Of a stretch of 10,838 bases of DNA, positions 1 through 10,552 are shown piece by piece; position 1 is the stretch's first letter; each line of letters starts with the position of its first letter. The DNA is from Acetobacterium sp. (GTDB taxonomy: Bacteria > Bacillota > Clostridia > Eubacteriales > Eubacteriaceae), in NCBI GenBank assembly GCA_022013395.1, contig JAKLQL010000006.1, positions 1-10,838 of the forward strand, given 5' to 3'. A program made the translations under genes and the position numbers. The notes under the pieces were generated by a model, which searched no databases, was not told where the DNA came from, and worked only from the letters and a program-made list of their open reading frames with translations.

Positions 1-163
1 CTCCCGATGAGAATTTTTCTCCAACCACACTCATCGAATCCACCATGGCCTCCAAAATTTCTCCCGGTGCGGTTCCTTCGTCTAATGCTTCTTGAACCAG
101 ACCTGGTACCAATTTAGCTTTTCCTGCTTCGACCTTTGCTTTGACTTCTTCAATTTTTGACAT
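1..163 (-). CDS. Corrinoid (B12-binding) methyltransferase protein, N-terminal part, cut by window edge
   Basis: This is the start of a corrinoid protein that would carry a methyl group on cobalamin between a substrate methyltransferase and a methyl-THF methyltransferase. Only about 54 residues are inside the window. They open with MSKIEEVKAKVEAGK and reach VGEKFSSG, the four-helix cap region found before the B12-binding domain; the DxHxxG cobalamin-ligand motif would lie outside. By hand alignment about 35 of 54 residues match the complete corrinoid protein at 3518-4150, so the two are paralogues. The ATG at 161-163 is preceded on the minus strand by a strong AGGAGGAA site. It follows the MttB-family gene in the same direction with a gap of about 147 nt, so it is probably the dedicated corrinoid partner of that enzyme. 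The family is clear; the substrate is not. Confidence 0.9.
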   Translation of the reverse strand, partial: MSKIEEVKAKVEAGKAKLVPGLVQEALDEGTAPGEILEAMVDSMSVVGEKFSSG

Positions 164-248
164 GATTTCTTCCTCCTATTTTATTACACGGCCTTATTTT
201 TATACCTTAAATAATGACCTATTTACAATTTTTTAAATTTCTGAGAAT

Positions 249-282
249 ATTTTATGGAAGATAAGATCATCTTCCATAAAAT
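249..282 (-). other. Intercistronic stem-loop between the MttB-family and corrinoid genes
   Basis: A perfect 14-bp inverted repeat (arms ATTTTATGGAAGAT and ATCTTCCATAAAAT, 6-nt loop) lies 29 nt after the MttB-family stop codon. No run of T follows it on the minus strand, so it does not look like a classic intrinsic terminator. It could be a transcript-stabilising or processing hairpin, or a partial attenuator that sets the ratio of the two proteins. The structure is plain in the sequence; the role is inferred. Confidence 0.75.
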
Positions 283-310
283 CTTATTGCTTATAACTAG
301 CTAGCTTTGG

Positions 311-1756
311 TCAACACAGTTCTTTTTCGGCTCTAGTCATAATTTCATCCAGTTGCTTAACCGTTTTCGCCGGTAATGGATTTTTGACGCCTTTTGAAAG
401 AATTTCTTTAACCCGATCTTTTATTCGGCCTTCTAAACCTCGCTTGTCGGATTTTTCCCATTGGTTAAAAGTTTGTGGTACCATCAGATCCGGGGTGTAA
501 AAATCATGGATGTGTTCAATGGTATGCTCTTCTGCAATAAAATTCCCACCTGGCCCCACTTCATCAATGGTTTCTTCCGCCAAGGTTTCTTCATTTATTT
601 CAATCCCATTTACTAATACCTTCATAAACTCGATCATTTCATTACACAGAACAAAATCTTCAAGCTTGGTTAAATTCCCAGCCTCATAGGCACCAATGGC
701 AAATGACATGTTGGTGCCGGAAAGCATGGAAGAGTAAAGCTGGATGGATTTATCGAATGTTGAAATTTCATCAAAGACACCGCTGTCAGTATTGCCAAAG
801 TTTGAACAAAATGGCAGCTGGAGATACCTGAATACATCAGATGTGGCACATTGAGCAATGATGAGTTCGGGTCTAGAGTGAGCCATCAAAATAGCGCTCA
901 TATCGATATTATCATTAAATTTACTGACAATAAATGGGGCCCCAGGATTTGTCAGTTGACTGACAACCAGTCCCACCAGGGTATCTGCCAGACCAACCGC
1001 AATACTGCCTGCCAGTGTCATAGGACCACTGAGACCAAATCCAATCCCGGCAATATAAACGGAAGGTGAATTTTTTTCAGCCATAAACATTACCTGTTCC
1101 AGCCCGTTATCGGTATGAACCAGGGGATCCATGGGGCAAATTAGATTCACGGCAAAAGGTTTTGCTTTAAAAGCGTCGGCGCTCCCGGCAACCGCTTCAA
1201 ACATTTCGAACTCATATTCCAGATTTTTGATGTTATGAGCCCAATACATAATCGGTTTCTTGGTATTTTGGAGAATCGTATGAATCTCGGCGATATCAGC
1301 TGCTTCGTTCTTTGCATCAGAAACAGAAATGAGACCGCTGGCCCATGAAATATTGGGAAGTGCATCAATCAATTGTGCTACATTAGCGGCATCCGCTTTG
1401 GTTCCTGGCCGTCTTTCACCCGTTTCATAATCAACAATTTGTGTACATGTAATAGCCGGGCCGTGATGAACATTGTTTTTTGACAACTTCATAGCCGGTT
1501 CCCCATCTCGGTTATAGATTGTCAACGCCTTGGGGGCACGATCCACAGCCCATTGGAGTAAACCATAAGGAATTTTTACATTATCATCTTCAACGACACA
1601 GCCGGCATTTTTCAATAGTTCGATTGCTTTTTTGTTACGCACACTGCATCCGGTTCGTTCCAATATCCGGTATGCTGAATCCACAACCTCTTCACACTGA
1701 ACCTCATTCCACACCTTGTATTGAATACTTTGATTAGAAATACTGTTTGGTTTCAT
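311..1756 (-). CDS. MttB-family (non-pyrrolysine) corrinoid-dependent methyltransferase
   Basis: A 481-aa member of the trimethylamine methyltransferase (MttB) superfamily, a cytoplasmic enzyme that moves a methyl group from a substrate to a corrinoid protein. The reading frame is open throughout with no in-frame TAG, so this is a non-pyrrolysine member. Characterised relatives in Desulfitobacterium and Eubacterium limosum act on quaternary amines such as glycine betaine, proline betaine, carnitine and gamma-butyrobetaine. Visible family features are the LERTG segment near residues 32-36, a GERRPGTKAD region near 113-122, and the C-terminal GPGGNF...EEHT motif near 401-412. Length fits the family. 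I chose the ATG at 1754-1756 because GAAAGG sits 9 nt upstream and the sequence then matches the family N-terminus; an in-frame extension upstream runs into a hairpin and lacks a good ribosome site. The gene lies between an MFS transporter and a corrinoid protein. The exact substrate cannot be read from the sequence. Confidence 0.93.
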   Translation of the reverse strand: MKPNSISNQSIQYKVWNEVQCEEVVDSAYRILERTGCSVRNKKAIELLKNAGCVVEDDNVKIPYGLLQWAVDRAPKALTIYNRDGEPAMKLSKNNVHHGPAITCTQIVDYETGERRPGTKADAANVAQLIDALPNISWASGLISVSDAKNEAADIAEIHTILQNTKKPIMYWAHNIKNLEYEFEMFEAVAGSADAFKAKPFAVNLICPMDPLVHTDNGLEQVMFMAEKNSPSVYIAGIGFGLSGPMTLAGSIAVGLADTLVGLVVSQLTNPGAPFIVSKFNDNIDMSAILMAHSRPELIIAQCATSDVFRYLQLPFCSNFGNTDSGVFDEISTFDKSIQLYSSMLSGTNMSFAIGAYEAGNLTKLEDFVLCNEMIEFMKVLVNGIEINEETLAEETIDEVGPGGNFIAEEHTIEHIHDFYTPDLMVPQTFNQWEKSDKRGLEGRIKDRVKEILSKGVKNPLPAKTVKQLDEIMTRAEKELC

Positions 1757-1778
1757 AAGCCACTGCCTTTCTTTATAA

Positions 1779-1812
1779 TCAACCGCAGATGTACATATGC
1801 ATCTGCGGTTTG
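1779..1812 (-). other. Intercistronic stem-loop between the MFS and MttB-family genes
   Basis: An 11-bp perfect inverted repeat (arms AACCGCAGATG at 1781-1791 and CATCTGCGGTT at 1800-1810, 8-nt loop) can be extended by three pairs past a single bulged T. It fills most of the 72-bp gap between the MFS stop and the MttB-family start, about 23 nt before that ATG. No T-run follows it on the minus strand, so a simple terminator is unlikely. A role in mRNA processing, stability or translation of the downstream gene is inferred. Confidence 0.75.
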
Positions 1813-1828
1813 ACACAAAACTTATTGA

Positions 1829-3055
1829 TTATTCTTGAACCAGCTCTTGTTTCCCAGTTGGAAACTGTTTCTTTTCTATTGATGCAACGACAATATCCGC
1901 AATAACCATTGCTACTAAAATAATTGCCGACACGGTCCATGTTTTTGTAAAACTTTCAGTATTCATAACGCCTAAAAGCCAGGTTGCATAATAAGTGCTG
2001 ATAAATGAACCAATCCCGTAAACAGCCGTTATAACTGAAACAGAGTCGTCATATCGTGATTTTGGGACGATATTAAAACCATGGGCATAAGCATTTGAAA
2101 AAGCAATTTTATAAGTACAGGCTCCGATGGTTCCAACGATTAACAAAACACTAACGGATGGATATAAGACGAGAATAAATAATGAAACCGCTGCGATTGC
2201 GTAACAGGTAGTAACCGTATACCGTTTCAGCTTACCGTAAATAAAACCGAAACCGAGACAAATCAAAAATCCAACAATCGATTTAACCGAAGCTGATATC
2301 CCGGCTAATTCTGTTCCGCCAAGATTGTTTTCAAAAATATATGGTGAAAGATAATACAGGACTGTTCCGCCTAAAACTATGTTTAGCAGAAAAAATCCAA
2401 ATGACATCCACCAAAATCGCCATCCCAGTGGTTCTTTGACACCAGTAGCCGCTTTTGCTCTTTCTTCAGCGGTTTCTTTTGAAGGTTTGATACTGGGAAT
2501 AAATAGAATCAGCAGAATAACCATTGGTACTGCTGTCCAGTACAACATAAAAACACTTTGCCATGGCTGGCCGCTTGATAACATCCCAGCAAAATAACTG
2601 AAAATTACCCCAACCAGACTTAATGCGGCATTGTAATAACCGGTAATTTTTGCCCGGGTCTTACTGTCAGTATAGAGATCTGCGATCAGAGCAACGGCTA
2701 CAACGTTTACAATACCAGCCCCTAAACCAACCAATGTACGCATAACACACATATACATCCAGTCATCAACGAATACTCCGAGAATCGCACCAACTGCAAA
2801 GATCACACCACCTGCGATCATGACAATTTTTTTGTCCATTTTTTTAAGCAGTGCTGCCGTAAGCAATGATGCGAAAACAATGACTAACATTGGACCTGAT
2901 ACAAAATAATTTACATACCCCATGGATTCAGGATATGTCTTATACAATACTCCAATAATTGGATTAATTGCTAAATCCGCCATAACCGCAATTGCTGTGG
3001 CCATAATCGCAATGGTCGCTAGTATTCTTTTTGTTTTTGACATTTCGACTGACAT
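1829..3055 (-). CDS. MFS transporter, probable uptake of the methylated substrate
   Basis: A 408-aa major facilitator superfamily membrane protein with about 12 hydrophobic segments in two halves. A charged central loop lies near residues 187-212 (KPSKETAEERAKAATGVKEP). Family hallmarks are a motif-A-like loop, LKKMDKKIV, at about 70-78 between helices 2 and 3, and an arginine at 106 opening helix 4, followed by a glycine-rich GLGAGIVNV stretch. I chose the ATG at 3053-3055 because AGGAG lies 7 nt upstream; an upstream in-frame ATG has no such site. It is the first gene of a likely operon with the MttB-family enzyme and a corrinoid protein, driven by the promoter at 3182-3210. The context suggests import of the MttB substrate, but MFS subfamily and direction of transport cannot be settled here. 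Characterised MttB-type quaternary-amine loci often carry a BCCT transporter instead. Confidence 0.9.
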   Translation of the reverse strand: MSVEMSKTKRILATIAIMATAIAVMADLAINPIIGVLYKTYPESMGYVNYFVSGPMLVIVFASLLTAALLKKMDKKIVMIAGGVIFAVGAILGVFVDDWMYMCVMRTLVGLGAGIVNVVAVALIADLYTDSKTRAKITGYYNAALSLVGVIFSYFAGMLSSGQPWQSVFMLYWTAVPMVILLILFIPSIKPSKETAEERAKAATGVKEPLGWRFWWMSFGFFLLNIVLGGTVLYYLSPYIFENNLGGTELAGISASVKSIVGFLICLGFGFIYGKLKRYTVTTCYAIAAVSLFILVLYPSVSVLLIVGTIGACTYKIAFSNAYAHGFNIVPKSRYDDSVSVITAVYGIGSFISTYYATWLLGVMNTESFTKTWTVSAIILVAMVIADIVVASIEKKQFPTGKQELVQE

Positions 3056-3127
3056 AAAATTTCTCCTTACCTGTTTTTTTATCCCTAAAATATAAAGTCG
3101 TTTTAAATATCTGTTTTGCACTTTTTT

Positions 3128-3139
3128 TACCTGCAGGTA
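3128..3139. promoter_or_regulatory. Perfect 12-bp palindrome in the MFS gene leader
   Basis: TACCTGCAGGTA is a perfect palindrome about 40 nt downstream of the predicted transcription start of the MFS operon and 72 nt before its ATG. The position suits a repressor roadblock or an activator site, but no binding protein can be assigned. Confidence 0.4.
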
Positions 3140-3150
3140 GCCTAACAATA

Positions 3151-3166
3151 TTTAAGCGCGCTTTAA
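3151..3166. promoter_or_regulatory. GC-cored palindrome just downstream of the MFS promoter
   Basis: A perfect 10-bp palindrome AAGCGCGCTT (3154-3163) with AT-rich flanks stands out in AT-rich DNA. It begins roughly 12 nt after the predicted transcription start, a usual place for an operator. The regulator is unknown; the PucR-type protein at 6778-8322 is one candidate. Confidence 0.4.
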
Positions 3167-3181
3167 TTTAAGTATAGTTAA

Positions 3182-3210
3182 ATAATAGTTCCATTATTTC
3201 TTTTTGTCAA
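3182..3210 (-). promoter_or_regulatory. Sigma-70-type promoter for the MFS/MttB/corrinoid operon
   Basis: On the minus strand a perfect -35 box TTGACA (3205-3210) is followed after exactly 17 nt by TATTAT (3182-3187), one base from the consensus -10. The start would fall near 3175, giving a leader of about 120 nt. This places the MFS, MttB-family and downstream corrinoid genes under a promoter separate from that of the upstream UroD/MtqA/MtqC-like genes. Confidence 0.75.
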
Positions 3211-3517
3211 GTTGTTTTTGTAATATATTCAGATTTTATGAAACCGATATTTATTGATGAACTTAATAATGGATTATTCACAAAGTTATAATTTAACCGT
3301 TCAACGCCTGTGATACCAGCAGATCCAGTCAGACCTGTTTTACTCGTTAAGTGAAAAGATAAAATAAACAAAGCACACCAATTTCTAGTAAACTCCCATT
3401 ATTTCTGGTAATTGCTTACTTTCAAATATTCTCAATCCGAAAGCAAGCTTTTTCCTGAGGACTGTCTTTTATTCTATTTCTTTCCTTCGCAGTCCAATAT
3501 CTTGTTTATTTTGTATA
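3211..3517. other. Intergenic stretch between the two methyltransferase modules
   Basis: No convincing gene is present. Downstream of the corrinoid gene on the minus strand there are two possible hairpins. One has 6-bp arms GGACTG/CAGTCC at 3459-3464 and 3490-3495. The other has 10-nt arms at 3414-3423 and 3439-3448 with one mismatch on the plus strand (a G-U pair in the minus transcript) and a 15-nt loop. Neither has a T-run, so termination by them is uncertain. A short inverted repeat AATAAT-GG-ATTATT lies at 3265-3278, about 55 nt upstream of the MFS promoter -35 box. A minus-strand frame stays open for tens of codons but has no usable start. Confidence 0.5.
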
Positions 3518-4150
3518 TTATTTATCTCCGATGAGTTCCTTCGCTTTAGCTGCTGAGCTTCCGGCATCCGGTGCATAACCATCAGCTCCAATTTCGTCGG
3601 CATAGGCCGGGGTGACTGGTGCCCCGCCCACGATAACTTTCATATCTGGGAAAGCGGCTTTAACCGTTTGAACGGCTTCTTTCAACGCTGGCATGGTGGT
3701 CGTCAACAGACCAGAACAGGCAACCAGTACCACGTTTTCATTTTCTTTAACTGCTTCTACAAAGCGTTCAGCTGGCACATCGACGCCCAGATCAACCATA
3801 TCAAATCCGGCACTTTCCAGCATCATCACAACCAGATTTTTGCCAATATCATGAAGATCTCCGGCAACCGTTCCCATGATGCAGGTTCCCAGGGAGGTCG
3901 ATTCATCTCCAGCCATAGCTGGTTTTAAGATTTCCACACCTTTTGACATCGCTTTGGCAGCGATCAGCATTTCCGGCACAAAAATTTCTCCGGATGAAAA
4001 TTTTTCACCGACTATACCCATGGAAGCGATCATGGCATCCAGAATATCCTGTGGTTTGACTCCAGCATCCAGAGCTTCCTGAACAGCAGCGGCAACTTTT
4101 TTTGATTTACCAGTTTCTACTAATACTTTTACATCTTCAATTTTTGACAT
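3518..4150 (-). CDS. Corrinoid protein of a methyltransferase system (MtqC/MttC-like)
   Basis: A complete 210-aa cobalamin-binding methyl carrier. It has the two-domain build of MttC/MtaC/MtqC proteins: a helical cap (about residues 1-85) and a Rossmann-like B12-binding domain (about 88-210). The cobalt-ligand motif DLHDIG is at 98-103, with D98, H100 and G103 forming DxHxxG. It is followed by SGL at 146-148 and a GG pair at 175-176, which line the nucleotide tail pocket. A ribosome site AAAGGAG lies 8 nt before the ATG. It is the last gene after the UroD-type and pterin-binding methyltransferases, 124 nt behind the latter. Expected role: accept methyl from a substrate methyltransferase and pass it to the MtqA-like enzyme. 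Family assignment is firm; which substrate enzyme it serves is inferred from position. Confidence 0.95.
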   Translation of the reverse strand: MSKIEDVKVLVETGKSKKVAAAVQEALDAGVKPQDILDAMIASMGIVGEKFSSGEIFVPEMLIAAKAMSKGVEILKPAMAGDESTSLGTCIMGTVAGDLHDIGKNLVVMMLESAGFDMVDLGVDVPAERFVEAVKENENVVLVACSGLLTTTMPALKEAVQTVKAAFPDMKVIVGGAPVTPAYADEIGADGYAPDAGSSAAKAKELIGDK

Positions 4151-4274
4151 TTTGATTTCTCCTTTGATTTAAATTCAAATACTTATTTTTATTTAATCCA
4201 CCCGGAACTTGTGTGAATTCCTGAGTTTTATTAGACCTTTTTTAAATAGACATATTTCTCGTAACATGAACCTT

Positions 4275-5072
4275 CTATTTTACAAAAATTCCTTCGCGGA
4301 AAGCACCAATGTATTCCATACAGTATTCATCTTCGCCCATCATGGCCTCGGTAGCGAAAAGCATCCCCATCATGTCTTTATTAAGCGGGTCAAGAATAAA
4401 ACTATCCATCCCGGCGCTCATGGCCAAAACGGCAAAAGCCTGATTGGCAATCCGTCGTGCTGGCAGGTTGAATGAGATATTACTGACTGCTCCGGTCACA
4501 TGGATGGTCGGATATTGCTTTTTGATTTCCCTGATTACTTCGGTAACCATGGCGATACCATCTTCAGAGGTACAAAGCATTTCAATCAATGGATCAATGT
4601 GCATCCGGGATGGATCAATTTTGTATTCTTTGCATTTCGCCATTAAGTCGGTAAAGACATCAAGACGGTCTTTGGCCGTTTTTGGTATTCCTTTATCACT
4701 ATTAAGCAATGCTACACATTCCCATTTAGTGTCAGCAAGCACTTTAAAAGCGATATCAACTTTACCACCTTCCAACGATACGGAATTGAACAGTCCTGGT
4801 TTATTACAATATTTCATCGATTCAATACAGGTATAAACATTCGGACTATCGACTGCGATGGGAACATCCGTAGCGTCCTGAACGATATCAATCAGCCATT
4901 TCATGGTTTCCAGTTCGATGTCGTCATCGACAGAAGCACAAACATCAATAAAGTTTGCTCCTGCCTCAGCTTGCCTAATTGCCAGACTCTTGATAAACTC
5001 AGCGTCTTTCTCAGCAATGGCCTTTCCCGTTGAAGGAATGGCGCCATTTATTTTTTCTCCAATAATAATCAT
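4275..5072 (-). CDS. Methyl-THF:corrinoid protein methyltransferase (MtqA/AcsE-like)
   Basis: A 265-aa pterin-binding (DHPS-fold TIM barrel) methyltransferase, cytoplasmic, which in acetogens moves methyl from a methylcorrinoid protein to tetrahydrofolate. It opens with the family signature MIIIGEKING. Residues matching the pterin pocket of AcsE-type enzymes are visible: D75 in VDSPN, N96 in FNSVS, D160 in HIDPLI and N198 in SNISFN. Length matches AcsE and MtqA. AAGGAG lies 9 nt before the ATG. The stop is TAG, with another stop 11 codons further on, so readthrough would add little. It lies 52 nt behind the UroD-type gene and 124 nt ahead of the corrinoid gene, consistent with one operon. It is not the carbonyl branch AcsE itself, since no acs genes are nearby. 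It is the only methyl-THF enzyme visible here, so it may also serve the MttB module. Confidence 0.93.
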   Translation of the reverse strand: MIIIGEKINGAIPSTGKAIAEKDAEFIKSLAIRQAEAGANFIDVCASVDDDIELETMKWLIDIVQDATDVPIAVDSPNVYTCIESMKYCNKPGLFNSVSLEGGKVDIAFKVLADTKWECVALLNSDKGIPKTAKDRLDVFTDLMAKCKEYKIDPSRMHIDPLIEMLCTSEDGIAMVTEVIREIKKQYPTIHVTGAVSNISFNLPARRIANQAFAVLAMSAGMDSFILDPLNKDMMGMLFATEAMMGEDEYCMEYIGAFREGIFVK

Positions 5073-5124
5073 AGAGCATCTCTCCTTTTAATAAAGTATT
5101 GATTTTTCATTTCGTAGACTCGAT

Positions 5125-6207
5125 TTAATTCGAAAATTTAATCCGTGAATAGCGATAAACTTCTTCGAAAAATTCGATTGTGCAGGGGTTTGAATAATAC
5201 ACTTCCATAATCACCGGGTATTTCAGTTCTAACACCTTATCCACCAGTTTTCTTGCCGCCGCAACGTATTCCTCTTTACTGGCACCTGGTTCTGGAACCT
5301 CTGGCGCATAGTGGAGTGTGATCTGATCCCCATATTGAGGGACAACCGTATCAAAATCAATTAGCGGCTGACATTCTAACATATCAAATCCGGCTTCAAT
5401 ATAACAAGGCACTAACTGATCAACCTTGCCGCAGCTATGGCATTCGGTATAAAGGCCTTTGCTGTGGGCATAATCATTCACCTTTTTGATATGAGGTACC
5501 AGCATTTCCCGAATTGTGGCCGGCGAGAGAAACAAGCCTCTCTGGTGACCCCAGTCATCATGGAGGCAAATCGCGCCAATCTGGCCAGGAAACACTTCCA
5601 TGTATTTATCAATAATCATGATATAAAGGTCCGAGAGCTTATCAAATAATTCATGAATTGCATCCTGCTGGTCTTCATCAATCATGGCAATAAGAGACGC
5701 TTCAAAATCCATAAACGATATTAATCGCTCAAAATAACCGGTGCAGATTACTGGTTCCCACAGGTAGGGACCTTTTAGGTTTTTTTCAGCGGTAACCTTG
5801 CAATCAGCCCAATCCCAGGAGTCAATCACTTCCTTTGTTGGGAAAACAATTTTTTCTTTCCACTCATTGGCATCATCCAGACGCGGTTTTCCCGGTCTGA
5901 CAGTTGAACCGCCAATATCGACGCCATATTCCCAATCGATGCCGAACATATCCAGTCCTCCCAATTGTTCCGGGGGCAGTTTTTCATCGGATACATTGCC
6001 TTTAGCCGGATTATCCGGGATGCACTTTGGAAACAGATACTGATAATCAAATATGGTTACCTGCCATAACGGGTCTTTTTCTTTAAGCATTCGCTCGAAA
6101 TTTTCTTTGGGAGTGATGGGTGTGTTAAACTCTGGACATTCACAGCCAAACATAACCTGGGTATCCATGATTTTTAATTCTTCTTCTGAAAATGGAATTT
6201 TTGACAT
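5125..6207 (-). CDS. UroD-fold methyltransferase with H-x-C...C zinc site
   Basis: A 360-aa protein of the uroporphyrinogen decarboxylase/MtaA superfamily. The superfamily shares a TIM barrel and includes zinc methyltransferases such as MtaA/MtbA and the MT I proteins of aryl-ether O-demethylases. A likely zinc site is visible: H257 and C259 in ECHSCG, and C342 in SNPCTIEF, giving H-x-C-x82-C, the arrangement of MtaA-type enzymes. A further family-like HDDWG motif is at 216-220. The N-terminus (CEC at 22-24) is not typical of haem biosynthesis UroD, and no haem genes are nearby. AGGAGG precedes the ATG. As first gene before the MtqA-like and corrinoid genes it is probably the substrate-side methyltransferase, perhaps acting on a methoxy compound or a methylated thiol. 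The substrate is unknown, and a redundant thiol-type acceptor role cannot be ruled out. Confidence 0.85.
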   Translation of the reverse strand: MSKIPFSEEELKIMDTQVMFGCECPEFNTPITPKENFERMLKEKDPLWQVTIFDYQYLFPKCIPDNPAKGNVSDEKLPPEQLGGLDMFGIDWEYGVDIGGSTVRPGKPRLDDANEWKEKIVFPTKEVIDSWDWADCKVTAEKNLKGPYLWEPVICTGYFERLISFMDFEASLIAMIDEDQQDAIHELFDKLSDLYIMIIDKYMEVFPGQIGAICLHDDWGHQRGLFLSPATIREMLVPHIKKVNDYAHSKGLYTECHSCGKVDQLVPCYIEAGFDMLECQPLIDFDTVVPQYGDQITLHYAPEVPEPGASKEEYVAAARKLVDKVLELKYPVIMEVYYSNPCTIEFFEEVYRYSRIKFSN

Positions 6208-6531: not shown

Positions 6532-6560
6532 ATTATATCGCTGATTTTACAAATTGTGAA
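6532..6560 (-). promoter_or_regulatory. Sigma-70-type promoter for the UroD/MtqA/MtqC-like operon
   Basis: On the minus strand TTCACA (6555-6560) and a perfect TATAAT (6532-6537) are separated by exactly 17 nt. Transcription would start near 6525, leaving an unusually long 5' leader of about 320 nt before the UroD-type ATG. I saw no cobalamin riboswitch box in the leader. Confidence 0.65.
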
Positions 6561-6777: not shown

Positions 6778-8322
6778 ATGTTAATAAATCTCACCATGGC
6801 CGCCGGTCACCTGTCAGATCTGACCATTCTTTCCAGTAAGATGGATCGGCTGTCGGAACGCCTGCTTCAATTCCCGGTACACTACACTGGGGAAACATCG
6901 TTTAAATCTGATCGGCTCTACATTGCTAAATCAGAAGATCTCACCGGGAACCCAACCTTTGAAGGGTTGACGACAATCGTTTCCATCGGTTATCCCCCGA
7001 TGGCTTACCATCATGATTCAGCAGAACTTCTGTGTATTGGACAAAATACTGCACCCGAGGTGCTCTTAAATATTCTTCAGGGAATTTTTGGTATGTATCA
7101 GGCCTACGAATCGGAAATATTTGAGATTTTCCAGACGGAGAACTTTTATGAAAAAATGGGGGAACTTGCGCTTAAACTCTTTAATAATCCGGTTTCGGCC
7201 TATGATGCTCATGAAAAACTGCTTTTTTTTCAGTATGATCCAACTCGGAAAGCACTCGATAACACCTATGAAAATGTTCAGAAACCGGGGGAATTTATGC
7301 CGGAGGAAGAACGTCGGATTCTTCAGCTCGATCCGCAGTTTTTAGCCACCTATGCCACTATTGGTCCATCCCTGGATGAAAAAAGAATCTATCACACCAA
7401 TGCATTATATACAAATCTGCGGGAAGACATGATTTATCTGGGTCGATTTCTGGTTGAAGATGCCTATAAGAACTTTGAGGATTTTGAATATCCCTTACTG
7501 GATTGGTTTGGGGGTTATCTTAAAAAGTCGCTATTAAACAAAGGCAATCCAAGATTCGGAGATTCAAATGAAGTGGAAGAAATGATGCGTCAGCTTCTAC
7601 TGCTGCGGATGCCCTACGCCCCCGAATATGATCGCCTTCTTAAAACCTTAGGTTGGGAGAAGGACGATGATTATATATGTGTCTGCATATCTTCGATTCA
7701 TGGCAGCCACCCCAAGACTCCCCAATTAGATGCCGCTATTTATCTCAATGAACTTTTTGACAGTCATTATATTCTTTTGAATGATCCTCGAATTATTCAG
7801 ATTTTTAATCTCACTCGCAGCCAGTATTCCATGGAACAATACCTCAGACGCCTGGAGATATTCCTGCATGATGATAATTGTATAGCCGGCATGGGGGTCA
7901 CTATCCAGCATTTCCCTGACGTCCGGATCTGTTTGCAGCAAGCGATTTACGCCCTGGATTATCATCAGAAATCTGGAAATCAACGTCTCGTAAAATTTGT
8001 CGACTGCGTCCTGGATATCCTGATCGATAATGCCAAAGGTAACTACGGTGGCGAATTCTATTGTACCGATGCCGTCAAAAAGTTGATGGAATACGATCGT
8101 ATCAACAATACCGAACTCTTTAAAACGTTACGTTGTTATATTGAAAACAATATGAATGCAACCAAAACTCAGGAAGTGCTGCACATCGCCCGAACCACTT
8201 CCCTGTATCGGATCAATCGTATTGAAGAAATTACGCATTTATCCCTGCAAGATCCGGATATCCGATTATACCTCCTGCTGTTGTTTCGTCTGATTGATCA
8301 TGATTACAACCTGGTGGATTAA
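6778..8322 (+). CDS. PucR-type transcriptional regulator
   Basis: A 514-aa DNA-binding regulator transcribed away from the methyltransferase operon. The C-terminus carries the PucR/CdaR-type helix-turn-helix region: LFKTLRCYIENNMNATKTQE at about 447-466, then LHIARTTSLYRINRIEEIT at about 468-486. The middle part (about 270-410, with YALDYHQKSGN near 391-401) resembles the degenerate GGDEF-like domain common in this family. The N-terminal part (1-120) looks like a sensory region without a recognised motif. Length suits the family. The start ATG follows GGAAG at good spacing. PucR-type proteins usually sense a catabolic substrate and activate neighbouring genes; here the divergent UroD/MtqA/MtqC-like operon and the MFS/MttB operon are the natural targets. 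The ligand is unknown. Confidence 0.88.
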   Translation: MLINLTMAAGHLSDLTILSSKMDRLSERLLQFPVHYTGETSFKSDRLYIAKSEDLTGNPTFEGLTTIVSIGYPPMAYHHDSAELLCIGQNTAPEVLLNILQGIFGMYQAYESEIFEIFQTENFYEKMGELALKLFNNPVSAYDAHEKLLFFQYDPTRKALDNTYENVQKPGEFMPEEERRILQLDPQFLATYATIGPSLDEKRIYHTNALYTNLREDMIYLGRFLVEDAYKNFEDFEYPLLDWFGGYLKKSLLNKGNPRFGDSNEVEEMMRQLLLLRMPYAPEYDRLLKTLGWEKDDDYICVCISSIHGSHPKTPQLDAAIYLNELFDSHYILLNDPRIIQIFNLTRSQYSMEQYLRRLEIFLHDDNCIAGMGVTIQHFPDVRICLQQAIYALDYHQKSGNQRLVKFVDCVLDILIDNAKGNYGGEFYCTDAVKKLMEYDRINNTELFKTLRCYIENNMNATKTQEVLHIARTTSLYRINRIEEITHLSLQDPDIRLYLLLLFRLIDHDYNLVD

Positions 8323-8413
8323 CGATGAGTTCATAAAAAAACGAATGCTCTCGTGAATTTGAATTAACTTTTTTAAAGTCCTAAAATTGATAGTCCCGTT
8401 CAGAATATAAAAA

Positions 8414-8457
8414 AAACTTATGCCTCGCCTCTTGTTTATAAAGCGATGCATAAGTTT
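8414..8457. terminator. Bidirectional terminator between the convergent regulator genes
   Basis: Ten-bp perfect arms AAACTTATGC and GCATAAGTTT are extended inward past a mismatch by TCGC/GCGA (8425-8428 and 8443-8446). On the minus strand the stem is followed by an eight-T run, a strong terminator for the TetR-type gene. On the plus strand it is followed by TTTGTTTTGTT, a fair terminator for the PucR-type gene. Confidence 0.85.
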
Positions 8458-8494
8458 GTTTTGTTCATTAAAGAATTCGTTCTTAAACCCTGTT

Positions 8495-9076
8495 TTATTT
8501 TTTTATAAATCGCAGAAAGTACATATTGTATTGATTAAACTTTTCTTCTAAATCGTAACTGCCATTTCTTCTTGACCAATCAAGAGCAAAACCACGAATA
8601 AAGATGATGTACAGATCGGTTATTTCTTTGGCACTCATTTCCGAAATAAACTGACTCTTCGCCTGGCCTTTTTCAATTATTTTCAAAGGGATGCTGAAGA
8701 ACATTCTCTCCCACTCTTTGTCGTTTCCTTCTGGGGTATTAGGCAATGGAATTCCACTGATCAAGCCGGCAATAACATGACCGGTACTGGCGATTTGTTT
8801 CATGACCATCCGACCATACTCGAACAAATTTTCATATTCATCTTCATCGATCAGATTATCAACAGCCTGTTCTTCCAGATAATTATCAATTTCTCCCAGA
8901 ATTTCGTAGATCAGAGCGTTTTTATCGGCAAAATAATGATAGAAGGTTCCGGTCGAAATGTTTGCCGTATCACAGATCATTCTGACAGTTAAGGAATCAA
9001 ACTCGTACTCCTCCATCAATTGCAGAACTGCATCCATTATTGCTTTTCTCTTTAACAGTTGTTTCTCTTTAACCAA
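8495..9076 (-). CDS. TetR-family transcriptional regulator
   Basis: A 193-aa TetR/AcrR-type repressor when started at TTG (9074-9076). The N-terminal helix-turn-helix is clear: TVRMICDTANISTGTFYHYF at about residues 30-49, then ADK. The C-terminal helical domain would bind an unknown ligand. The TTG start is chosen because AGGAGG lies exactly 7 nt upstream and the resulting N-terminus, (M)VKEKQLLKRKAIMDAV, has typical TetR length. A longer frame upstream would start inside the -35 box. It lies downstream of the CoA-transferase gene in the same direction but behind a stem-loop terminator, and has its own promoter. Likely target: itself and perhaps the CoA-transferase/thiolase genes, as TetR proteins often respond to acyl-CoA or acid ligands. 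Confidence 0.9.
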   Translation of the reverse strand: MVKEKQLLKRKAIMDAVLQLMEEYEFDSLTVRMICDTANISTGTFYHYFADKNALIYEILGEIDNYLEEQAVDNLIDEDEYENLFEYGRMVMKQIASTGHVIAGLISGIPLPNTPEGNDKEWERMFFSIPLKIIEKGQAKSQFISEMSAKEITDLYIIFIRGFALDWSRRNGSYDLEEKFNQYNMYFLRFIKK

Positions 9077-9083
9077 GCGCTTT

Positions 9084-9089
9084 CCTCCT
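9084..9089 (-). promoter_or_regulatory. Ribosome binding site that fixes the TTG start of the TetR gene
   Basis: A perfect AGGAGG on the minus strand, 7 nt before TTG at 9074-9076. No ATG sits at a suitable distance, so this site decides the non-ATG start. Confidence 0.8.
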
Positions 9090-9115
9090 GACTGCAACAA
9101 ATGATTGCCGCATAT

Positions 9116-9151
9116 TGTTAAAATTTTAGCAGATAAAAGCTCCTGAGTCAA
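9116..9151 (-). promoter_or_regulatory. Promoter of the TetR gene with overlapping palindrome
   Basis: On the minus strand TTGACT (9146-9151), a 17-nt spacer and TAAAAT (9123-9128) with an upstream TG form a strong extended -10 promoter. A 16-bp near-perfect palindrome (9116-9131, core TAAAATTTTA) covers the -10 box, the usual position of an autorepressor operator. Autoregulation by the TetR protein is inferred. Confidence 0.7.
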
Positions 9152-9195
9152 ACGTAATTCTATAATGCGGTTCTAACAATTTATGTAATAACTAA

Positions 9196-9233
9196 AACAG
9201 CAACTACCCATTACCTTTCAAGTAGTTGCTGTT
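9196..9233 (-). terminator. Stem-loop terminator after the CoA-transferase gene
   Basis: A perfect 12-bp stem (arms AACAGCAACTAC and GTAGTTGCTGTT, 14-nt loop) lies 38 nt after the CoA-transferase stop. On the minus strand it ends in TTTTAGTTATTA, a moderate T-rich tail. It separates the CoA-transferase transcript from the TetR gene. Confidence 0.7.
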
Positions 9234-9271
9234 CCAGGTTCAATATCTATTTACTATTTATTCAATCAAAG

Positions 9272-10507
9272 TTACTTTTTTTTAATATCATCCCATTCAA
9301 CAAAAATTCTTTTTTCCTTCAATCCGTTGATTTCTTCATTAGTATAACCTAATTCCATCAACACTTCCTGGCTGTGTTCACCAATATAGGGTCCTCTGAT
9401 ATATTCCGGCAGTCCCATTTCTTTGAATTTAATGGGCTGGCGCAATAATGTTCGGGTATTGCCATTGTCATATTTCAGTGAACAAAGAAAATCATTGGCC
9501 CAGGCTTGCTCATCTTCCAGAATTTCTTCCCAGAGCTGAGCAATGGCAAAAGGAATGTCTTCTTTAACAAATATCTCTTTATGCTCAGCCACTGTTTTGG
9601 TTTTCATATAGTTATTAACCAGATCGTAGATCTTTTTAGAATTGTCTCCCAGGGTTTCGAAATGACAATATGCCGGATCATCCTTTAATTCTGATTTGCC
9701 GATTATTTCCATGAATTTGGGAAAGTAAACATTGTATGGTGGCATCGCCAGCTGGATTAATCGTTCATCACTGGTTTTGAATGCATTCATAAAGGGATTT
9801 AGCATCTCTCTTTTATTGATGGGGTAGCGGTTGCCATACTGTGCTGATTGAACCAGTAACCCAAGGGCGTAAATTGCACAGTGATAGAGACTGACGGTTA
9901 CCTTTTCCCCCTGACCGGTTTTTTCCGCTTTGTAAAGCGATGACATAATCCCTGCTGACAGGTACAGTCCGGCCTGATGATCGCCTAATCCGGCAACAAG
10001 ATTCATTGGGTCCGAGCCCTTTTCATATAAGGTGCCCAGCCATCCGCCTCTGGCAAAAAAAGCGGTGAAGTCAAATCCTGGTAAATCTTTGTCAGGTCCC
10101 AGTTCACCGTAGCCAGTTAGATGGGCGTAAATAAGTTTCGGGTAACGGACTTTGATCGTCTCATAATCAAGCCCTGCTCTTAACAGTGCGTCGGTGCGCC
10201 AGTTGGTAATGAAGATATCGGCCTCATCCAACATTCTAAACAGGATATCTTTTCCGGCCTGATCTTTTAAATTAAGGGCAATGCCTTTTTTGCCGGCATT
10301 TTCCAAATCCCAGGTAGTATCCTCATAAGGGTCAGATGGTCGGCCTTCACTTGGTGCGGTGGTTCTGAGCGGATCACCGCCAAAACCTTCAATTTTTACC
10401 ACGCTTGCGCCTAAATCTGCAAAATATCTCCCTGCACATGGAGCTGCTACATAAGTTGCTAACTCCACTACTTTTATTCCACTAAATACGTTCTCTTGCG
10501 GACTCAT
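9272..10507 (-). CDS. Class III (CaiB/BaiF) acyl-CoA transferase, FldA/HadA-like
   Basis: A 411-aa cytoplasmic CoA-transferase that would move CoA between two carboxylic acids through an aspartyl-CoA thioester. The N-terminus has the family's GIKVVELATYVAAPCAGR nucleotide-binding start. The catalytic aspartate is probably D176 in GLGDHQAG, the position of the GDxxxG-type motif of formyl-CoA transferase. By memory, many stretches closely resemble cinnamoyl-CoA:phenyllactate CoA-transferase FldA of Clostridium sporogenes and the related HadA, for example LPGFDFTAFFARGG (142-155) and the AIAQLWEEILEDEQAW region. A substrate such as a 2-hydroxy acid or aryl-acrylate is therefore plausible, not proven. 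AAGGAGG lies 7 nt before the ATG. The gene follows a thiolase gene by 45 nt and ends before a terminator, so the two are probably co-transcribed. No dehydratase subunits are visible in the window. Confidence 0.9.
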   Translation of the reverse strand: MSPQENVFSGIKVVELATYVAAPCAGRYFADLGASVVKIEGFGGDPLRTTAPSEGRPSDPYEDTTWDLENAGKKGIALNLKDQAGKDILFRMLDEADIFITNWRTDALLRAGLDYETIKVRYPKLIYAHLTGYGELGPDKDLPGFDFTAFFARGGWLGTLYEKGSDPMNLVAGLGDHQAGLYLSAGIMSSLYKAEKTGQGEKVTVSLYHCAIYALGLLVQSAQYGNRYPINKREMLNPFMNAFKTSDERLIQLAMPPYNVYFPKFMEIIGKSELKDDPAYCHFETLGDNSKKIYDLVNNYMKTKTVAEHKEIFVKEDIPFAIAQLWEEILEDEQAWANDFLCSLKYDNGNTRTLLRQPIKFKEMGLPEYIRGPYIGEHSQEVLMELGYTNEEINGLKEKRIFVEWDDIKKK

Positions 10508-10552
10508 TTTTTTGCCTCCTTAGGCTGTTTCCAACTATTAACGAACAAATTA

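Follow-up and report, generated by a model that had tools for sequence, protein, structure and literature searches.

Pyrrolysine-free enzymes of the MttB family transfer methyl groups from quaternary amines to the Co(I) form of a corrinoid protein, and a methyltransferase (MeTr) then passes these groups to tetrahydrofolate (PMC12155760). UroD-fold enzymes carry out an equivalent transfer from aryl ethers and haloalkanes (PMC13222342). Here we describe a contig from an Acetobacterium sp. draft genome (GCA_022013395.1; JAKLQL010000006.1, or C652) in which both kinds of methyltransferase are encoded on one strand together with a transporter of the major facilitator superfamily (MFS). The window that we analysed is this entire contig of 10,838 bases, and the draft genome comprises 666 contigs, with 81.9% completeness and 5.8% contamination. 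We think it fairly probable that these genes constitute one inducible unit for uptake and demethylation of a single methylated compound or a closely related pair, and quaternary amines are the most likely substrates predicted for it.

Several described systems resemble parts of this locus. The Eubacterium limosum enzymes MtpB, MtcB and MtyB share MtqC and MtqA, and both these systems and MthBCAK resemble the window in combining a non-pyrrolysine MttB-family enzyme, a corrinoid protein and a MeTr that delivers methyl groups to tetrahydrofolate; however, their substrate enzymes have the MttB fold, and no UroD partner is named in the main text of that report (PMC12155760). A shared hub, with several demethylases acting on one carrier and one MtqA, is therefore already known. 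The glycine betaine cluster of 'Candidatus Formimonas warabiya' DCMF, as given in the accessible part of its description, contains three MtgB, two MtgC, one MtgA and two betaine/carnitine/choline-type transporters (BCCT). It thus has in common with the window and its relatives several demethylases, two carriers, one listed MeTr and BCCT transporters, but all three of its demethylases are MtgB, with the MttB fold (PMC9768040). The dichloromethane mec cassette, covered by the same text, encodes three UroD-superfamily methyltransferases, one corrinoid protein, one methyltransferase II and a transporter, and differs from the window in having no MttB and in its two-component regulator (PMC9768040). 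The cdmBCA system for chloromethane in Acetobacterium dehalogenans also combines a UroD-fold methyltransferase I, a corrinoid protein and a MeTr, but its cluster lacks MttB and its substrate is a haloalkane (PMC13222342). According to the available text, CdmA is 59% identical to MtqA, CdmA paralogs are apparently tied to systems for different methyl compounds, and the UroD tree holds clades with unknown substrates (PMC13222342). Type 1 mlp clusters share with the window bacterial UroD-superfamily corrinoid methyltransferases, but, as described in the accessible text, they have three Mlps with His-Cys-Cys sites and a Ram/RACE protein (PMC10418091). The window, a contig cut on both sides, has one UroD-type gene, and RACE is absent among the ten window genes scanned.

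Within the accessible text of the open-access literature searched, we did not find a conserved pairing of UroD-fold and MttB-fold enzymes described, and such a pairing of two unrelated demethylase folds seems to be new. Acetogens and gut bacteria contain many corrinoid demethylases without a known substrate; E. limosum, for example, is reported to have 42 MttB members lacking pyrrolysine (PMC12155760). Knowing a conserved partner and a transporter limits the range of candidate substrates, and the substrate of two enzyme families could possibly be identified together. Quaternary-amine demethylation by gut MttB-family enzymes has also been discussed as a route to lower trimethylamine production (PMC12155760).

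The minus-strand genes listed in the initial annotation are real and intact, as judged by profile matches and by reading frames that are uninterrupted across family lengths, except that the second corrinoid gene is partial. The UroD-type gene, a presumed methyltransferase I (5125..6207; 360 amino acids), scores 26.6 bits with PF01208 (cut-off 23.9). It has the URO-D domain and adjoins MeTr and corrinoid protein 1, the features by which corrinoid methyltransferases of this superfamily are recognised. The methyl-tetrahydrofolate:corrinoid methyltransferase, of MtqA/CdmA type (4275..5072; 265 amino acids), scores 332.2 bits with NF005719 (cut-off 259), a family that covers MeTrs of this kind generally and not MtqA alone, and matches PDB 4o0q with an E-value of 1.2e-82. 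Corrinoid protein 1 (3518..4150; 210 amino acids) contains the two expected domains, PF02607 and PF02310. The MFS transporter (1829..3055; 408 amino acids) scores 114 bits with PF07690, and the MttB-superfamily protein (311..1756; 481 amino acids) scores 271 bits with PF06253; their likelier starts, chosen by ribosome-binding site, are the ATGs at 3055 and 1756. The MttB match spans profile positions 22-499 of 500 in a frame without in-frame stops, and by visual inspection the residue that the profile aligns with the PDB 7xcl pyrrolysine is Asn. Corrinoid protein 2 (1..163) is cut by the contig end after its first 54 codons and matches PF02607 at 29.6 bits (cut-off 23). On the plus strand, a PucR-type regulator (6778..8322; 514 amino acids; PF13556) diverges from the UroD gene.

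The order UroD-MFS-MttB on one strand occurs in all three loci that had available DNA and an MttB of roughly 50% identity or higher, namely the window and two loci from distant gut genomes of one family, L014 (G067) and L123 (G269). The L014 proteins are 71% (UroD), 52% (MFS) and 54% (MttB) identical to those of the window, and the genes run in one direction as UroD, a 183-amino-acid protein that matches no Pfam family, a BCCT transporter, MFS, MttB and TetR. The UroD of this locus scores 23.4 with PF01208, just below the cut-off of 23.9. In L123, UroD and MttB are 56% and 49.9% identical to the window proteins and the MFS protein is 71% identical to that of L014; a PucR-type regulator lies opposite, followed by UroD, MFS, MttB and BCCT, with a RACo-type activator nearby. 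The divergent PucR-type regulator is thus present in two of the three loci (35% identity between window and L123 over 495 amino acids), as are BCCT transporters within the gene run. Neither gut relative was seen to have a MeTr or corrinoid gene beside the unit. Opposite the L014 UroD, at 2359-5316 of that locus, lie genes for a BadF-type ATPase and two DUF2229/HGD-D-like proteins, which might reduce the corrinoid protein in an ATP-driven manner instead of RACo.

The best matches in the 18 other genomes of the genus are 40% for MttB and 43% for UroD. Of 397 genomes of the family of G067, four have an MttB match with an E-value of 1e-90 or lower: G067, G269, G200 (best 41%) and G348 (best 36%). 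We did not find a UroD of the window type beside the MttB (35-36%) of loci L125, L126, L127 and L128. Two further loci were not counted as support. In L124 (MttB 41%), the genes run UroD-UroD-MFS-MFS-MttB and face a PucR-type regulator, but both UroDs are of low identity (25-31%), and in L074 (MttB 40%) a UroD (33%) lies 2.3 kb away and may belong to a separate cassette.

Protein matches from assembled contigs suggest that the association extends beyond these loci. We took exact equality in the size of the longest contig for each hit as identity, with sizes shifted by 1 to 25 bases in either direction as a control. Because only the best 120 of 638 MttB hits and the best 120 of 1298 UroD hits were listed, links may have been missed. 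Among listed MttB hits of at least 50% identity on contigs of at least 5 kb, 14 of 33 match the contig of a UroD or MFS hit (control mean 0.14, maximum 1), and 9 of the same 33 match a UroD contig alone (control mean 0.08, maximum 1). Below 44% identity, 1 of 30 listed MttB hits on contigs of this size matches when four hits on one 2,649,597-base contig, all matching UroD there, are omitted; counting UroD only and including that contig, the figure is 5 of 34. From the side of the transporter, 18 of 45 listed MFS hits on contigs of at least 4 kb, the window's own excluded, share their contig size with an MttB or UroD hit (control 0.42, maximum 2). In the MttB tree, a single 31-row clade (support 100/92) contains 20 of the 21 rows for which a link came from the contig test or from DNA. 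UroDs of about 50% identity or higher, including that of the window, likewise group in a single clade (23 rows; support 100/99), and a neighbouring clade of four rows holds the UroDs paired by contig match with P0011, P0027 and P0119. One further protein, P0311 (466 amino acids), contains both MttB and MFS domains and is either a fusion or a product of assembly. L110 (G017) carries at 7234-9876 a solitary UroD of the neighbouring kind (42%), followed by a gene of the citrate transporter family, and UroDs of the wider group therefore also occur without MttB.

Because the UroD-MFS-MttB order is kept in gut genomes and because contigs are shared, we interpret the locus as a single substrate unit that also contains a MeTr-corrinoid cassette; the cassette sits between UroD and MFS in the window, and similar cassettes are present in many copies across the genus. 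In such a unit, the MFS protein would import the methylated compound, and MttB would transfer an N-methyl group to the Co(I) corrinoid protein. UroD might transfer a further methyl group to a corrinoid protein, whether from the same molecule, from its product or from a companion compound, and the MeTr beside corrinoid protein 1 would load the methyl groups onto tetrahydrofolate for entry into the Wood-Ljungdahl pathway. MttB may use corrinoid protein 2 as an additional carrier; alternatively, the gene for this protein may begin another cassette. A more specific version, which we regard as tentative and on the doubtful side, is that the methyl groups are stripped serially into one corrinoid pool, with MttB removing the first methyl group of a quaternary amine and UroD the second, from the residual tertiary amine or from another atom. 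UroD-fold enzymes are not known to act on tertiary amines, so such an activity would be new, and a conserved relay of two folds on one substrate would be a new design.

Several observations weigh against a single unit. Its substrate and its expression are both predicted from the genes. The contig test assumes that equal size means identity and demonstrates a common contig but not adjacency; when all contig sizes are used, 15 exact MttB-UroD pairs compare with about one per shift of 1-5 bases. Within the MttB clade, 11 of 31 rows lack a link among the matches listed, and the link label requires 12 changes on the tree. A mirror-tree comparison of 13 pairs (P0119/P0179 left out) gave a weak correlation (r 0.275; 714 of 10,000 permutations as high), and two of these pairs have a UroD from the neighbouring clade. 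An MFS protein of Eubacterium callanderi (P0242) is 71% identical to that of the window, yet MttB matches in five genomes of genus g3, taken to be Eubacterium, do not exceed 32%, so this transporter need not accompany this MttB. Finally, the separate promoter-like site in front of MFS would allow two transcripts, and we found no operator shared by the regions 5' of UroD and MFS (local score 14 versus a shuffle mean of 14.8, with 78 of 100 shuffles as high).

The initial annotation had divided the genes into two modules with separate promoters and had emphasised that only one methyl-tetrahydrofolate enzyme is visible, proposing that two folds feed it through paralogous carriers. The count of one is an effect of the window. 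The draft genome contains 10 matches to the window MeTr, including its own; eight of them extend over 256 or more of the 265 residues (37-100% identity) and two are partial. It also has 13 PF02607 matches, including both in the window. One MeTr copy in the same draft is 94% identical, and copies of 97-98% identity lie beside other UroD genes in G013 and G002 (L076, L077). The number of MeTrs in the window is therefore uninformative as to how many pterin enzymes serve the carriers. Other UroD genes are likewise followed by MeTr, a corrinoid gene and then an MFS-type gene, both in the draft of the window (C481) and in G002. In L078 (G000:C42), a MeTr remnant lies between UroD and a corrinoid gene at 426-566, with 47 residues at 85% identity in a frame of 58 amino acids.

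What survives of the proposal is that the two folds are apparently associated and might use a common carrier, although the argument from a single MeTr and the split into modules are not supported. The strongest case is the G067 draft, which has one PF02607 match, a protein 53.8% identical to corrinoid protein 1 that adjoins a MeTr 64% identical to that of the window; this pair lies on a different contig from UroD and MttB. If that draft is near complete, its UroD and MttB are restricted to one carrier of this family, and use of the same carrier by two unrelated folds is plausible there. G269, G200 and G348 have 5, 3 and 5 corrinoid-domain matches, respectively, so the single-carrier case is not general to the relatives.

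The 54 residues of corrinoid protein 2 are up to 94% identical to products of other genes in the genus (a G010 gene in a frame of 213 amino acids) and 65% identical to corrinoid protein 1. Among 20 of its 21 nearest relatives (G004:C33 excluded), the next feature downstream is a UroD gene in 15 cases, a MeTr gene in three, a TetR gene in one and the contig end in one; MeTr is directly upstream in two, and none of the 20 has a gene labelled MttB among up to three upstream genes. Because of these downstream genes, corrinoid protein 2 could be part of an additional UroD cassette or be followed by a second MeTr. A second MeTr gene past base 1, which the initial annotation had named as evidence against its own proposal, is thus possible. 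Contig C238 was considered as a continuation of the window because a corrinoid gene is cut at its end, but it was rejected, since the product of this gene is just 27% identical to corrinoid protein 1 and the contig end mismatches the window start. A comparison of 11 of the draft's 666 contigs, a set that does not include L109, part of C487, gave no overlap of at least 15 bases with either window end.

The main competing explanation, which we consider unlikely, is that UroD-MeTr-corrinoid 1 and MFS-MttB-corrinoid 2 are independent neighbours, the former acting on a methoxylated or other methyl compound and the latter on a quaternary amine. It would account for the separate promoter-like sites, for the occurrence of UroD-MeTr-corrinoid and then an MFS-type gene without MttB in L077 and L079, and for the UroD genes downstream of corrinoid 2 relatives. 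However, UroDs, MFS proteins and MttBs of the same clades are found together in L014 and L123, and contig sharing far exceeds the shifted control. In L079, the gene opposite UroD has no Pfam match. Artificial joining of unlinked pieces during assembly would also produce such a contig, and is a natural concern given the completeness and contamination of the draft; moreover, G009, a genome of the same species in one contig, has no close MttB (best 29%) or UroD (42%), although its TetR-CaiB region is 89% identical to 8410-10526. We nevertheless judge an artefact very improbable. The UroD matches P0121 at 97% (19 member sequences, 7,535-base contig) and the MttB matches P0001 at 96% (13 members, 3,323-base contig), while the MFS cluster P0241, the window's own, has 13 member sequences on two contigs. 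The gene order also recurs in unrelated genomes, and the frames are open over family lengths.

A different role for UroD must also be weighed. In methanogens, MttB works with a UroD-fold partner, MtbA, which is the second methyltransferase for MttB there. The UroD of the window could by analogy pass the methyl group of the corrinoid protein to a thiol. The pairing of MttB with a UroD-fold partner resembles the methanogen arrangement, and His257-x-Cys259 aligns with the His-x-Cys of MtaA, albeit in a non-significant match (4ay7, E 0.63, ranked under an unrelated chain at E 0.35). As far as the accessible text describes them, S-methyltransferases of the superfamily have a His-Cys-Cys zinc site, whereas O-methyltransferases lack one or both Cys (PMC10418091). 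In an alignment of 40 rows, His257, Cys259 and His216-Asp217-Asp218-Trp219 are invariant, but no C-terminal Cys column is conserved and Cys342 is confined to the window row; as candidate ligands of a His-Cys-Cys site, only His257 and Cys259 are invariant. The UroD also adjoins MeTr, the usual second enzyme of acetogens. We therefore provisionally favour a role for UroD on the substrate side, and rate the thiol-methylating role as improbable.

The two best promoter-like sites in the window, each with 11 of 12 consensus matches, precede UroD (6532..6560; TTCACA-17-TATAAT) and MFS (3182..3210; TTGACA-17-TATTAT) on the minus strand in the correct orientation. This agrees with the separate promoters predicted earlier, but both sites come from a consensus scan alone, and promoter-like sites overall are not in excess (36 versus 30.9, standard deviation 5.6). 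A palindrome at 3150-3167, immediately 3' of the MFS site, is a possible operator. Two intergenic inverted repeats were also observed: one at 1781-1810, after the MFS stop and before the MttB start, with perfect 11-base arms separated by 8 bases, and a 17-base repeat, 94% complementary, between MttB and corrinoid 2 (246-285). A scan of the window with Rfam at gathering cut-offs gave zero matches. Base composition over the genes is 0.38-0.47, and showed no clear contrast across the window genes that would be a sign of import.

To the right of the PucR-type regulator are a TetR gene, a CaiB-type CoA-transferase gene and a cut thiolase gene. The TetR-CaiB stretch (8406-10526) has 82-89% DNA identity to G009, G013, G016 and G006, and the stretches fetched from these genomes contain no match to the MttB, MeTr, corrinoid or UroD of the window. 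In all four, CaiB is preceded by a gene for a protein of 483-489 amino acids, belonging to the sodium:solute symporter family in G009 and G013, that is absent in the window and in G001. G006 carries another URO-D gene about 4.4 kb from TetR.

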